Origin: Parabacteroides sp. FAFU027
Lineage (GTDB): Bacteria; Bacteroidota; Bacteroidia; Bacteroidales; UBA7332
DNA: 64,000 nucleotides
Direction: 5' to 3'
NCBI RefSeq assembly: GCF_022808675.1
Contig: NZ_JAKZKV010000001.1
Location: 186,001 to 250,000, forward strand
In this document: piece by piece, positions 18,642-24,117 of the stretch
Position numbering within the stretch: the first letter of the stretch is position 1
Layout: each line of letters starts with the position of its first letter
The notes under the pieces: generated by a model
What the model was told of the DNA's origin: nothing
Databases searched by the model: none
What the model saw: the letters and a program-made list of their open reading frames with translations, nothing else
Made by a program: the position numbers and the translations under genes

Positions 18642-19608
18642 ATGAATCCCGACTTGCAGAAAAAACTGGAAAATATGTAATGCTTCAACAGCTACTCCAT
18701 TCCAGACCGGAGATTACAAGCAGAAAGGCTCAGATGAAGTATCTTATCTTTGAATTTGACAATGTTATTGAGCTGATCAATGAAATATCCTACAAGAATA
18801 TTGCCAGTATAGCATATAAACAAAGTATCAAATCAAGATTGATTAGTATGACTGTCGATTATTCTCAAAAGATTCAATCATATGCGATAGACCAGCAAAA
18901 AGTATTTTTACAGAGCACAACACTATTCACTGTTGATGCTCTTGATAAATTATCTATAAACGAGCTTCTGACAGCCTCTAATCAACTTTACAATATAATA
19001 GATATACACCTTAATGATCTTGACACCTTCTCATTGAATCAAGAAACTCAAGTTCGATATAAAACAGCAATTCTCTTATGTGAAAAGACGCTTGACAATG
19101 TAAGTTCTTTTTCTGTAGAAGATTATTTTACGGTAGCTGACAGAATCCTCCATAAAATGGAAAAGAGAGTCAAAGATGCTAGAATAGAAGAGCCTGAATT
19201 TCATAAAGAGTTTAGAAAGGTGATTAAATTACATCAAGTACCAATTATCAGACACCAAAAACCAGGATCTTTAGCGAATATATTAGTCAAAGGTTGCGTG
19301 AATGGAAATGTATATGATACCGAAACAGGAAAGGCTATACCAGAGGCCCGTATAACCTTCAAAAATTCGCACATTTAACTCCTGTATTAGAAATAAACAC
19401 TTTAAGAGACGGTTCATTCAACAACAAATGGCTTCAAGTGGGAAAATATGATCTTACAATATCTCATGCTGACTACCGGACTCAGACCTTCTCGTTTTTG
19501 GTAACTAAAGATAAAGATTGTGTTATTACAACATCATTGAAGAAGCCATATAATGATGTGATGCCCGAAAAACAAGAAGTGATCAGATTGCCGGAAAAAG
19601 AGCAGTGA
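18642..19608 (+). pseudogene. Broken gene with a C-terminal carboxypeptidase-regulatory-like domain
   Basis: Three overlapping reading frames look like one former gene. ATG at 18642 gives a 12-codon frame (MNPDLQKKLENM) ending in TAATG, which overlaps the ATG at 18680 of a 232-codon helical frame. That frame stops at 19378 in the middle of a carboxypeptidase-regulatory-like beta domain (GNVYDTETGKAIPEARITF). The same domain continues in the -1 frame from about 19366 (FAHLTPVLEINTLRDGSF, then VGKYDLTISHADYRTQ) to a TGA at 19608. The switch is at a run of five A residues (19361-19365). A single-base indel, a sequencing error or a frameshift signal would all fit; I favour a damaged gene. Confidence 0.65.
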
Positions 19609-19676: not shown

Positions 19677-20225
19677 ATGGCAAAAAGAATCCAACTACAC
19701 ACATTTCATTTGTTGTTTCGTCTCTTCTCCTTTTTAGCTGATAAATCGGGAGGATGGAGTATGTTTGTAAAGCCGAAATTGGTGATTGGAGCTTTGATTA
19801 TGGGTATAAATGTTGTAGTTGGCAATGCTCAGAATAATATTATAAGTATTGATACTTTTAGCAAGCAAAATAATGATTCTGTTTCAGAGTTATGCTATGA
19901 ACCTATAATATTAGTTGACGAACTCCCTGAATTTCCAGGTGGTTATGATTCTTTATATTCATACATCCAGAAGAAGATAATATATCCTCCTAAGGCAATT
20001 AGTCTGAAAATAGAAGGCATGGTTATATGCACTTTTACGATTGACGAGAAAGGAAAGGTTACAGACATTCAAATTATAAAAGGGATTCACCCTCTTCTTG
20101 ACAATGAAGTAATCAGAATTTTTAAAGAAATGCCTAAGTGGATACCTGGAGGAAAACAAAACAAGCCTGTTCCTGTAAAATTCACCTATCCTATTCGCTT
20201 TACATTACCTGAGAAAAAACATTAA
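19677..20225 (+). CDS. TonB C-terminal-domain protein, tandem paralogue 1
   Basis: This 182-residue protein has an unusual conserved head (MAKRIQLHTFHLLFRLFSFL, then ADKSGGWSMFVKPKLVIG), a hydrophobic stretch near residues 37-50, a short linker and a TonB C-terminal domain. The domain is marked by ELPEFPGGYDSL, KIIYPPKAISLKIEGMV, FTIDEKGKVTDIQIIKG and PVKFTYPIRFTLP. TonB domains transmit proton-motive force to outer membrane receptors, but this protein lacks the long Pro-Lys spacer of true TonB. The first 40 residues are nearly identical in the next two genes while the linkers differ. The head could be an export signal or a recognition leader. Confidence 0.8.
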   Translation: MAKRIQLHTFHLLFRLFSFLADKSGGWSMFVKPKLVIGALIMGINVVVGNAQNNIISIDTFSKQNNDSVSELCYEPIILVDELPEFPGGYDSLYSYIQKKIIYPPKAISLKIEGMVICTFTIDEKGKVTDIQIIKGIHPLLDNEVIRIFKEMPKWIPGGKQNKPVPVKFTYPIRFTLPEKKH

Positions 20226-20227
20226 CC

Positions 20228-20869
20228 ATGGCAAAAAGAATTCAACTACATACCTTTCATCTGCTGTTTCGCCTCTTCTCCTATTTAGCTGATAAACCGG
20301 GAGGATGGAGTATGTTTGTAAAGCCGAAATTGGTGATTGGGTCGCTGATTGTGGGAATAGGATTTACTTCCTGTGATGTAAAAACACGAAATAAACCATC
20401 CTCATCAGAAAAAGATAAACAAGATTCTTTTCAAAAGATGGCTGAACAAAAAAAATCGAATGAAGAATCAACCACAACTTGTTATTTTACTGTAAACTCT
20501 TCTGAAGGCGGGAATATCAATACACCTGTTTTTGATGAGAAAGGCCAATATTATATCGTAGATCAAATGCCTGAATTCACTGGCGGTACAGATGCTTTGC
20601 TCAAGTTTATAAAGAAACATATAATATATCCAAGTTCAGTCATAAAAGAAGGTATTGAAGGAGTGGTAATATGTAGTTTTATTATCAATACTGATGGTTC
20701 AACGAGAAACATTCAAGTTATAAGAGGGCTAAATCCTAAACTTGACAATGAAGCAATTCGTGTTATCAAATTATTCCCCAAATGGAAACCCGGCAAACAA
20801 GGAGGAAAGATTGTCCCTGTGAAATTCACCTTACCTATTCTCTTTACTATACCAGAGAAAAAGAATTAG
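20228..20869 (+). CDS. TonB C-terminal-domain protein, tandem paralogue 2 (possible lipoprotein)
   Basis: This is the second copy, 213 residues, 2 bp after the first. It shares the head MAKRIQLHTFHLLFRLFSYL and FVKPKLVIG. Here the hydrophobic stretch ends VGIGFTSCDVK, and FTSC is a plausible lipobox, so this copy may be lipid-anchored, which the others cannot be by that cysteine. The linker is longer and rich in K, S and E (about residues 55-80) and holds TCYFTVNSSEGG. The TonB domain (QMPEFTGGTDALLKFIKKHI onward) is complete. It could act with the downstream radical SAM enzyme; that is inference from linkage. Confidence 0.8.
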   Translation: MAKRIQLHTFHLLFRLFSYLADKPGGWSMFVKPKLVIGSLIVGIGFTSCDVKTRNKPSSSEKDKQDSFQKMAEQKKSNEESTTTCYFTVNSSEGGNINTPVFDEKGQYYIVDQMPEFTGGTDALLKFIKKHIIYPSSVIKEGIEGVVICSFIINTDGSTRNIQVIRGLNPKLDNEAIRVIKLFPKWKPGKQGGKIVPVKFTLPILFTIPEKKN

Positions 20870-20871
20870 CC

Positions 20872-21465
20872 ATGGCAAAAAGAATTCAACTCCATACCTT
20901 TCATCTGTTGTTTCGCCTCTTCTCCTATTTGGCTGATAAATCGGGAGGGTGGAGTATGTTTGTAAAGCCGAAATTGGTGATTGGGGCCTTGATAATAAGC
21001 TCAGGTTTAACCCCTACTGAAAAAATATTTAGTCAGAAAAATCTGTCTGATAGTAAAACAAAACAGCCAACACAATTAAAAAAGAGAAGTTCTTCTCAAG
21101 CAAAAACTTCAGATTCAACAGCTAAAATGCAAGATATGGAAGAAACTTGCTATATCATTGTTGAAGAAATGCCGGAATTCCCGGGTGGAACAGACTCATT
21201 AATGAAGTTTTTATCCAAAAACATCATCTATCCGAAAGAAGCCATAGAGAAAAAAGTAGAAGGAATGGTCATATGTTCCTTTATCATTAATAAAAGAGGA
21301 CACGTTTCAGACATTCAGATTACAAGAAGCGTTAATCCTTTACTTGACGCTGAAGCTGTAAGAGTAATAAAAATTATGCCCAAATGGAAACCGGGCAAAC
21401 AAGTCGGTAAACCAACTTCAGTAAAATACACCTTACCCATCAGATTTACATTACCCAATAAATAA
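20872..21465 (+). CDS. TonB C-terminal-domain protein, tandem paralogue 3
   Basis: This is the third copy, 197 residues. The true start is the ATG at 20872, shown by the shared head MAKRIQLHTFHLLFRLFSYL; a longer frame from 20782 runs through the end of the previous gene. The head is followed by a K/S/T-rich linker (about residues 55-85), the segment METCYIIVEE-like around residue 95, and a full TonB domain (EMPEFPGGTDSLMKFLSKNI to RFTLPNK). It ends 3 bp before the radical SAM gene, so translation of the two is probably linked. Nucleotide identity among the three heads is very high, which suggests recent duplication or gene conversion. Confidence 0.8.
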   Translation: MAKRIQLHTFHLLFRLFSYLADKSGGWSMFVKPKLVIGALIISSGLTPTEKIFSQKNLSDSKTKQPTQLKKRSSSQAKTSDSTAKMQDMEETCYIIVEEMPEFPGGTDSLMKFLSKNIIYPKEAIEKKVEGMVICSFIINKRGHVSDIQITRSVNPLLDAEAVRVIKIMPKWKPGKQVGKPTSVKYTLPIRFTLPNK

Positions 21466-21468
21466 AAC

Positions 21469-22491
21469 ATGCTCAATCTCCCACATATCGCCTTTGAAAC
21501 AACCGACCGGTGCAATCTCGATTGCGTCTATTGCTACAACATCTGGAAAACGGATGCCGTAGAGCGCACACCGTTCAACTCTTACCAGAAAGCCATTGGT
21601 ACGTTAAAACAGCTTTTCAGCACAACAAATATCCAGTATGTTGCATTTACAGGAGGTGAACCTTTTCTTTCGGAACGCTTTGCCGAGGTGATTCTCTACT
21701 GCCGCATGGAGGGGAAACAGGTCACACTCATCAGCAACGGCACGAAAGGAACAGAAAAAGACTACAAGCGGCTAATCAAACTCGGCGTGGGATTATTTGA
21801 ATTCCCCATCCACTCAGCCCACGCAGAGGTTCATGACCAAATGGTGCAAATAAAAGGAAGCTGGCAAAAGTCTGTTGATTCCACGTTGGCTGTTTTGAAA
21901 AACGGAGGACGCGTTGTTCCGGTGGTGGTCATTACAAAACACAATGTCAACCAACTCGGAGAAACGCTCGAATACATCGCATCGCTCGGTTGCCGCAGAA
22001 TTATGCTTAACCGGTACAACATTGGCGGGAAAGGATGCAATCAGCCGCTTGAAGTTTCGGCCACAGCGGAAGAACTGCGCAACGCTTTTGCCACAGCCAA
22101 TGATAAGGCGGCCGAACTGGACCTGCAACTATCAGCAAACGTCTGCACTCCGGTCTGCCTGCTCAATCCGGCAGATTATCCGCTGATTGCGTTCGGGCAT
22201 TGCTCGTTTGATGTGCTGAGGCGCCCCATCACAGTAGATATAAACGGAAATGTACGCCTTTGCAACCACTCTCCGGTTGTGGCGGGAAACATTTTCGAAA
22301 AAGAGATGGAAGAAATTCTCTTCTCAGACTACACGCGGGAATGGGAAGAGACGGTCCCGGCATTCTGTTCCGACTGCTCCCACTGGACAAAGTGCAAAGG
22401 CGGATGCCGCGCCGCATCGGAGCAGTGCCAACAATCCTTAGCCAAAGAAGACCCGATTATCGAACATTTAGGTATATTAGCATTGAAATAA
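21469..22491 (+). CDS. Radical SAM/SPASM-domain enzyme
   Basis: This 340-residue enzyme has the radical SAM cysteine motif TTDRCNLDCVYCYN (C15, C19, C22), which binds a [4Fe-4S] cluster and S-adenosylmethionine. FTGGEPFLS (about residue 62) and the strand LISNGT are standard barrel elements. The C-terminal SPASM region has cysteines in LCNHSP, FCSDCSHWTKCKGGC and EQCQQ, expected to hold auxiliary clusters. SPASM enzymes usually modify peptides or proteins. No short precursor gene is visible; the three TonB-like proteins immediately upstream are the nearest candidate substrates. Base composition is richer in GC than that of the three upstream genes. Confidence 0.88.
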   Translation: MLNLPHIAFETTDRCNLDCVYCYNIWKTDAVERTPFNSYQKAIGTLKQLFSTTNIQYVAFTGGEPFLSERFAEVILYCRMEGKQVTLISNGTKGTEKDYKRLIKLGVGLFEFPIHSAHAEVHDQMVQIKGSWQKSVDSTLAVLKNGGRVVPVVVITKHNVNQLGETLEYIASLGCRRIMLNRYNIGGKGCNQPLEVSATAEELRNAFATANDKAAELDLQLSANVCTPVCLLNPADYPLIAFGHCSFDVLRRPITVDINGNVRLCNHSPVVAGNIFEKEMEEILFSDYTREWEETVPAFCSDCSHWTKCKGGCRAASEQCQQSLAKEDPIIEHLGILALK

Positions 22492-22515: not shown

Positions 22516-24117
22516 ATGAATAAGTTCCATTTCCTACTAATTTCGTTTTTCTATTTAAGCTCTTCTGTTGTATATGCTCAGGAGAAAGCCCCATCCGGAA
22601 AACGATTTCTCGTTTCCAATGTTGTACAACCAAAGGCAATGCTGGAAACAGAAAGTGTAGTTACCGCATTTGAGGCTAAACTTCATAAGAAAATCAGCTA
22701 CTATCCGACAGAATTCTCCTCTAAACAATTGGTTTATTGTGCCAATAACGGACTTATCGAAACCTTACAGCAATGTTATGACCAACACCGTCCATTAATT
22801 CTTTCACCGGATATTATCTGGTTAGCCATTTGCCAGGGAACCTCCATCCACATTAACCAACATTTCAAAGATTTCGAATCGGTTATCTTCAAGAAAGATA
22901 AACCCAATGAGATTGTAATAAACAATGACAGTCTCGAATTTGGCGAAAAACACTGGCAAAAACTGATCAATGATTTCTCCAGGGAAACACAGAAATATAC
23001 GCAAGATGATTATTACAATTTCTTTGTGCCGGCTTTTTCCACGACTACTGCAATCGAGCAAAGAGCTTATCAAATCACCATGCTTGAAGCGTTCAAAAAA
23101 GCATTTACCTATATCGGTGAAACAGGTTGCGGAATTCCCAATATTACCCTGACCGGATCAAAAAAAGACTGGTTAGCGATATACAACAGGCTAGATCAAT
23201 TGGACAAGATAGGTTTGTCTGAATGGAGAAAAGAGCTTAAACCAATCGTTCAGGAATTTATCAATGTGTATGATGATAAAATCAATATGCAGTTCTGGCA
23301 ATCAATCTACAAATCTGCATCGACTTATGGCGCAGTGTATGTATCCGGATGGATTGTAAAGCTTTACCCTTATATCAAGGAAATTGAGTTGACAAAAGAG
23401 AAAGATTCCACCGGCGAAAAAGCCAAAGCAATTGAAAAAATCCTACCTAATCAGTTTCTCAAGGGAAACAGCTATCGTCTCTCCACCTTACAAACAGATA
23501 ATTTTCCTTCCGGAATTGCGAAGATTGATATTATCTGGAAAAACTATTACAAACAGACCACCGAAACACTCGAAGCCTGTTCCGGATTTATGGGAATCAG
23601 ACAGTATCAGGATAAATCATTGATGCCGGTTATTGCCTGGGCTTTATGTAAGAAAGATGCTCAAATTATTGAAGACCGAGAGCCAACCGCTGACACTCTT
23701 ACGCTTAATATTCCCCACAAAAAGGATTATTGGTCTCCGCTAGTTTGCGACAAACTTGTCACACCGGCACAATACGATATACGAACCTATAAAACTCATC
23801 AGGAAGGAATCGACTATATCCGCAAACGGATTGAAAATGCCATCCTGAACAATAAAGAATTCAAACAGAATAAACTATCAAATATAAAAGTAAAGCTAAT
23901 TATCCTGACCAATGGCGACATTGCCGACGGAAGCATAAAGTGTAATAATAAAATGCTGGCTGACTTTGTACGAAAAGAAATGACCTCCCTACCTGGCAAA
24001 TGGACTCCCGCCCTGGCTTATCCGCAGGACTTCTTTGATGAAGAATTAACTGAGCAGGAGATGAAACTCAAGGTCAGGGTAAATAGCAAAGTGGAATTTA
24101 CATTGTTCATTAATTAA
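22516..24117 (+). CDS. Exported DUF4419 protein
   Basis: A signal peptide (MNKFHFLLISFFYLSSSVVYA) begins this 533-residue protein. The DUF4419 family is recognised by RPLILSPDIIWLAICQGTSI near residue 94, FSTTTAIEQRAYQITMLEAF near 175, GIPNITLTGSKKDWLAIYNR near 213, and SASTYGAVYVSGWIVKLYPY near 275. The last 100 residues, with LSNIKVKLIILTNGDIADGS, look like a separate small beta domain. Function of DUF4419 is not known; eukaryotic and bacterial members exist. The gene begins 24 bp after the radical SAM gene and may belong to the same transcript. Confidence 0.82.
   Translation: MNKFHFLLISFFYLSSSVVYAQEKAPSGKRFLVSNVVQPKAMLETESVVTAFEAKLHKKISYYPTEFSSKQLVYCANNGLIETLQQCYDQHRPLILSPDIIWLAICQGTSIHINQHFKDFESVIFKKDKPNEIVINNDSLEFGEKHWQKLINDFSRETQKYTQDDYYNFFVPAFSTTTAIEQRAYQITMLEAFKKAFTYIGETGCGIPNITLTGSKKDWLAIYNRLDQLDKIGLSEWRKELKPIVQEFINVYDDKINMQFWQSIYKSASTYGAVYVSGWIVKLYPYIKEIELTKEKDSTGEKAKAIEKILPNQFLKGNSYRLSTLQTDNFPSGIAKIDIIWKNYYKQTTETLEACSGFMGIRQYQDKSLMPVIAWALCKKDAQIIEDREPTADTLTLNIPHKKDYWSPLVCDKLVTPAQYDIRTYKTHQEGIDYIRKRIENAILNNKEFKQNKLSNIKVKLIILTNGDIADGSIKCNNKMLADFVRKEMTSLPGKWTPALAYPQDFFDEELTEQEMKLKVRVNSKVEFTLFIN

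Follow-up and report, generated by a model that had tools for sequence, protein, structure and literature searches.

The locus examined here, in Parabacteroides sp. FAFU027, carries three TonB-like genes (T1, T2 and T3) whose products begin almost identically and which lie directly before a gene for a radical SAM (rSAM) enzyme. The question it raises is whether that enzyme modifies the three proteins and, if so, where. The locus was analysed within a contiguous stretch of 64 000 nucleotides, referred to as the window, and by comparison with other genomes. The comparisons suggest that a Bacteroidales rSAM enzyme and families of exported, often lipid-anchored proteins, sharing an N-terminal head and a C[YH] motif, take part in an uncharacterised protein modification at that motif.

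Organization of the gene cluster

The features of the cluster are listed in Table 1. The original prediction, made from the window alone, had described three TonB-like paralogues with a near-identical head preceding a SPASM rSAM enzyme, and this was confirmed by a shared head of 42 residues and by Pfam matches. The intergenic gaps calculated from the coordinates are 2 bp (T1/T2), 2 bp (T2/T3) and 3 bp (T3/rSAM), as it had given, with the rSAM gene last. It had spoken of genes 'fused in operon' to the rSAM gene; the genes adjoin but are not fused. The FTSC resembling a lipobox in T2 and the LCYE, TCYF and TCYI sequences before the TonB domains were as described. The GC content changes from ~35% in T1–T3 to ~50% in the rSAM gene.

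Table 1. Coordinates of the features of the gene cluster (window positions)
Feature	Position	Strand	Evidence
T1, 182 aa: head, signal-peptide-like segment (VVGNA/Q, slash marking the site), LCYE linker, TonB_C	19677..20225	+	Pfam TonB_C 5.8e-18; CY at residue 73
T1 head, residues 1–42 (putative leader and start of signal segment)	19677..19802	+	Invariant alignment columns
T1 Cys-Tyr codons (putative modification site)	19893..19898	+	Residues 73–74; columns invariant
T2, 213 aa: head, lipobox FTSC, TCYF linker, TonB_C	20228..20869	+	Pfam TonB_C 3.7e-18; CY at residue 85
T2 head, residues 1–42	20228..20353	+	Invariant alignment columns
T2 Cys-Tyr codons (putative modification site)	20480..20485	+	Residues 85–86
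T3, 197 aa: head, signal-like segment, TCYI linker, TonB_C	20872..21465	+	Pfam TonB_C 2.5e-19; CY at residue 93; AlphaFold2 model
T3 head, residues 1–42	20872..20997	+	Invariant alignment columns
T3 Cys-Tyr codons (putative modification site)	21148..21153	+	Residues 93–94
rSAM/SPASM enzyme, 340 aa	21469..22491	+	Pfam Radical_SAM 1e-21, SPASM 8e-7

The gene 5' of T1 (window 18680–19608) has a reading frame broken near 19370 and is intact in the same-genus genome G002 (319 aa, L020 8608–9567); it is either a pseudogene or the product of a sequencing error. Between the rSAM gene and a YCII-domain gene lies a DUF4419 gene (window 22516–24117, Pfam 2e-71), which is no conserved partner, since in G002 the YCII gene is found directly 3' of the rSAM gene.

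The radical SAM/SPASM enzyme

The CxxxCxxC motif of the enzyme (C15, C19 and C22) and its SPASM cysteines (C245-X14-G260-X4-C265 and C300-X2-C303-X5-C309-X3-C313) were kept in all 23 orthologues, and a C226/C230 pair is also conserved; these 3 + 2 + 6 cysteines were kept in 22–23 of the 23. The usual last SPASM cysteine (C320) was present in only eight of them. Judged by this cysteine pattern, the window enzyme is a SPASM-domain radical SAM protein. No NCBIfam model covers the enzyme or its candidate substrates, the best rSAM-model scores being 74–102 bits against cut-offs of at least 180. A sequence search of the PDB with the enzyme returned distant relatives only, of which SkfB was the best (3e-9); viperins, PqqE and YydG were also among the closest. 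The AlphaFold2 model of the enzyme was poor (mean pLDDT 57, with the SPASM part below 50).

A conserved head of two types

Pairwise comparison of residues 1–42 of T1–T3 showed that 2–4 codons differ by amino acid and 6–11 differ silently. This excess of silent over amino-acid changes indicates that selection maintains the protein sequence of the head, rather than the copies simply being fresh. An alignment of ten such proteins, taken from the window and from three further genomes, showed no variation in the Cys and Tyr columns or in much of the head. In an AlphaFold2 model of T3 the head formed a helix (residues 3–23), the TonB_C domain had pLDDT values mostly above 90, and residues 42–94 were of low confidence; the low confidence of this linker, which includes the Cys-Tyr pair, is what a disordered, accessible segment would show.

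A second and commoner head type was identified in many genomes, composed of a transmembrane-like stretch and GKSxxWxxRKMKIG, then another hydrophobic run and, in most cases, a lipobox cysteine, and lastly TCYD or a similar sequence. Both types contain a basic K-x-K-x-x-G, which precedes the second hydrophobic run, and in many cases also KS..W (KSxxW). The profile match between them was weak (hhalign probability 17%, E 0.0014), so that a shared leader is argued mainly from position and pattern, and a common origin of the two types is likely rather than proven. The combination by which RiPP systems are recognised, a conserved leader-like head with an adjoining modifying enzyme, is present.

Pairing of head and enzyme across genomes

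A search with the profile of the window head type, covering 84 980 species genomes, identified six loci, two of them in a relative of the same genus. At the other four (L025, L026, L027 and L028, from a Bacteroidales bin, Paludibacter and two Prevotellaceae bins) an rSAM gene directly follows the head genes, its product being 64–80% identical to that of the window, and the Paludibacter locus contains four consecutive head genes. Within the genus, one head locus of G002 runs into the same rSAM gene at a contig end, and G001 has neither head nor rSAM. The genome that contains the window (G000) has a second head locus, at C1:711k, with no rSAM neighbour. The original prediction had staked itself on the head not occurring mostly apart from an rSAM gene. 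The enzyme gene was next door at six of the eight loci with the window head type, a count that leaves out an exact copy of one G000 locus on C7, and the remaining two loci were in genomes that carry the enzyme. The segments G000:C1:703000–720796 and G000:C7:48204–66001 (L019 and L022; 17.8 kb), which include the second head-TonB pair, are 100% identical and may represent a recent duplication or an assembly artefact.

Orthologues of the rSAM enzyme were then sought in 393 genomes of the order Bacteroidales and in a phylum sample of 395, and were found in 19 of the former and in one more genome, from another class or order, of the latter. At all 22 loci with readable upstream DNA, where the enzymes are 37–80% identical to that of the window, the gene directly upstream encodes a head and C[YH]. 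In each of these genes the head is basic-hydrophobic and is accompanied by a lipobox or signal-like segment, and the motif mostly reads [TSM]CY. Beyond the window and L025–L028, 17 of the 22 enzymes are only 37–52% identical, and one (L072) is from outside the order. With loci treated as independent and at the background rate, the chance of finding C[YH] at 22 of 22 loci has a log10 P of about -21. The commoner head type was present in 13 of the 393 genomes, 12 of which also carry the enzyme (Fisher p = 2.7e-17, a value that overstates independence because the head genomes are related, yet they span several families). The contig of the thirteenth genome, G072, stops just past the head gene, at a point where a further head-like start is present. 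Chance adjacency of head genes and rSAM genes was ruled out by these co-occurrence and recurrence statistics. The view of the head as a leader accompanying the enzyme was thus supported (22/22 upstream genes, 12/13 head genomes); by comparison across genomes, the head behaves like a leader.

Some head-bearing genes are distant from the rSAM gene, in G000 (C1:711k and C5:292k), in G148 (C13) and in G028 (C102), and for these action in trans must be assumed. The G000 gene at C5:292233–292832 (L073 2734–3333, minus strand) encodes an orphan TonB_C protein with an L058-type head and NMCYG, and is likely a further substrate acted on in trans. An orphan array at L105 4853–7317 (G148:C13) comprises at least six short lipoprotein-like members with CY (68–100 aa) and a member of 181 aa ending in NTCYF. 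No rSAM gene of the window family was found in the 14 kb of DNA examined at this array; that of G148 is on another contig.

The C[YH] motif and its payloads

C[YH] was found after residue 45 in 46 of 47 collected substrates, compared with a mean of 5.9 and a maximum of 14 in 2000 shuffles; the sole exception, L052_c, is a late-start call with CY at residue 27. Past residue 45, Tyr or His follows 61 of the 116 substrate cysteines, as opposed to 7–8% in neighbouring proteins of the same stretches, and T, S or M precedes the Cys of the motif in 51 of the 61 cases. Further upstream open reading frames that are without the head, for example the TonB_C lipoprotein L056_b, had no C[YH] motif. L058_a has one cysteine only, that of its CY, which excludes a disulfide within this protein. 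The dipeptide alone is not diagnostic, as three of nine head-less TonB_C proteins of G000 contain C[YH], which lies within MORN-like repeats in two and within the signal peptide in the third. In the former two (C4:25445 and C2:369157) GxCY closes the repeats, just ahead of TonB_C, and these proteins seem to have no connection with the system. The comparison across loci supports the Cys-Tyr pair as the likely target, as had been proposed from the window; that proposal needed adjusting in two respects, since His may take the place of Tyr and the head continues into an export signal.

The segment following the motif is variable. TonB_C is the payload in the window clade, L051, L056 and L058, many other substrates have a beta-rich-looking domain of ~110 residues with only weak Ig-like matches, and no domain follows the motif in L028 (81 aa), L054 (five tandem peptides of 75–81 aa, all with [TS]CH) and L055 (107 aa). 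Scans of the divergent substrates with NCBIfam and Pfam gave no covering family except TonB_C. Judging from these sequences, the TonB domain is dispensable, the payload interchangeable and C[YH] the constant part. The proposal that the enzyme modifies TonB-like proteins is supported by comparison as regards the pairing of head and enzyme and the likely Cys-Tyr target, but TonB is one payload of several and absent from some systems. A second motif at the extreme C-terminus was observed in L041_b and L042_a (NNTCYF and INTCYY) and in L105 6772–7317 (NTCYF), as if the payload could carry the site at either of its ends.

It is very improbable that T1–T3 are ordinary TonB energy transducers with an unrelated rSAM neighbour. 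Their TonB_C domains are clear and the genome has 21 TonB_C matches, but adjacency and co-occurrence hold over divergent genomes and several systems are without a TonB domain. By inspection of the sequences, the lipobox of T2 is at odds with a TonB anchor that stays uncleaved in the inner membrane, and the SPI-like site of T1 also argues against one.

A further possibility, though an unlikely one, is a role for the products as secreted or lipid-anchored peptide natural products, similar to bacteriocin- or signal-like RiPPs, in which the modified segment would be bioactive and the TonB_C or beta domains would act as carriers or targeting parts. The tandem members of 68–100 aa (L054 and L105) resemble RiPP precursor families, as does the difference in copy number between genomes of the same genus. 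Against this, no conserved dedicated transporter, peptidase or immunity gene was found around the pair at the loci examined, and many members are proteins of 170–330 aa. Signal cleavage of the substrates, which like their lipidation was judged by eye from the sequence, may well occur, but in many cases would leave a whole protein as the product.

Modification of the same proteins at the C[YH] motif also has to be weighed against modification elsewhere, for example in the head, with C[YH] as an unmodified metal or cofactor ligand or an interaction site under selection for a different reason. In favour of this, either Tyr or His could bind a metal, and the head, too, is conserved. However, the head would be lost with the signal peptide, at least in members with a lipobox, whereas C[YH] is the sole feature common to all mature parts and is often duplicated, the second C-terminal copy in L041_b and L042_a resembling a repeated core site. 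We regard modification elsewhere as quite improbable, and consider it probable, on the strength of these comparisons, that the enzyme modifies head-bearing proteins at C[YH].

Comparison with known systems

The closest likeness was to the predicted rSAM/lipoprotein pair TIGR04133/TIGR04134 of NCBIfam, in which a SPASM rSAM gene is likewise directly 3' of a gene encoding a basic-hydrophobic head, a lipobox and a variable outer domain. Its partners (L060–L069) have a short Tyr motif past the lipobox, as in the window system, but this is YGxP and not C[YH]. Membership was rejected for both components: the window enzyme scored 53.9 bits with TIGR04133 and that of L110 55.2, against a cut-off of 425, and TIGR04134 had no match to T1–T3 at E values up to 1 and none in G000. 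In a phylogenetic tree the TIGR04133 and window enzyme groups separated on a long branch with support of 1.0, and G035 and G058 carry both systems.

Leader-guided modification in the cytoplasm for a periplasmic enzyme is known from QhpD, which acts on QhpC of quinohemoprotein amine dehydrogenase (PMC7876137). Compared from the published description, the two systems share a cytosolic rSAM enzyme and binding of an N-terminal leader, QhpD forming Cys thioethers in a subunit of the periplasmic enzyme (PMC7876137). QhpC differs in having a 28-residue leader that is cut by QhpE and Cys-Asp/Glu bonds; in the window system the putative leader merges into a signal peptide, and C[YH] is the motif. In the bufferins, which are modified by MNIO enzymes, Sec signal peptides replace leaders and some members are predicted lipoproteins (PMC12452194). 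Bufferins and oxazolins resemble the window system in their Sec signal peptides, the length of some MNIO substrates and the Cys motifs of most (PMC12452194), but are modified by MNIO enzymes with partner proteins and no rSAM. The sactipeptide and ranthipeptide maturases (AlbA, SkfB and PapB) are SPASM rSAM enzymes that use precursor cysteines, and the window enzyme matches their models weakly; it is far below every family cut-off, and its candidate substrates do not take the form of a short peptide in which several cysteines are spaced out.

Novelty was judged against NCBIfam 20.0, Pfam and the open-access literature; in the latter we found no description of the head and C[YH] paired with an rSAM enzyme, and an earlier mention is possible. 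A paper on Bacteroidales RiPP clusters (PMC10352776) makes no mention of lipoproteins, TonB or signal peptides.

Proposed mechanism and implications

We propose that the system has two parts, a single rSAM/SPASM maturase and a group of exported substrates that change fast. The N-terminal head, with its basic K-x-K-x-x-G, frequent KSxxW and hydrophobic parts, would be a recognition leader and export signal combined. The cytosolic SPASM enzyme would bind the head and generate a radical at C[YH] in the disordered segment past the signal region. Most likely the Cys sulfur would then form a bond with the adjacent aromatic residue or with a different residue close by, a SPASM cluster taking the Cys thiol, a role that has been proposed for it in sactipeptide-type enzymes. 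Sec export, cleavage and often lipidation would follow, so that the modified site would be displayed beside the payload, TonB_C in the case of the window. As rSAM enzymes require reducing conditions, modification in the cytosol before export would be the simple reading.

A bond centred on the Cys would be consistent with the invariance of this residue and with its aromatic partner, and a Cys thioether is the leading guess for the candidate modification, albeit a tentative one. SPASM enzymes commonly form thioethers from precursor cysteines (PMC8326336). More doubtful, although possible, is that the enzyme cross-links the adjoining Cys and Tyr, or Cys and His, in lipid-anchored envelope proteins, one maturase thereby placing the same redox- or metal-active site on several unrelated payloads, the TonB-like one included. 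Protein-derived groups of the Cys-Tyr type are otherwise known from metal oxidases.

The short natural substrates (81 aa in L028 and 75–81 aa in L054) open the chemistry to co-expression and mass spectrometry. The findings also suggest that the unexplained TIGR04133/TIGR04134 system has a sister. If the proposal is true, TonB_C proteins that are unlike energy transducers would gain a context, and a major phylum would prove to have an rSAM modification of its envelope proteins that has gone unrecognised, with a testable target of two residues and an unusual leader doubling as an export signal.
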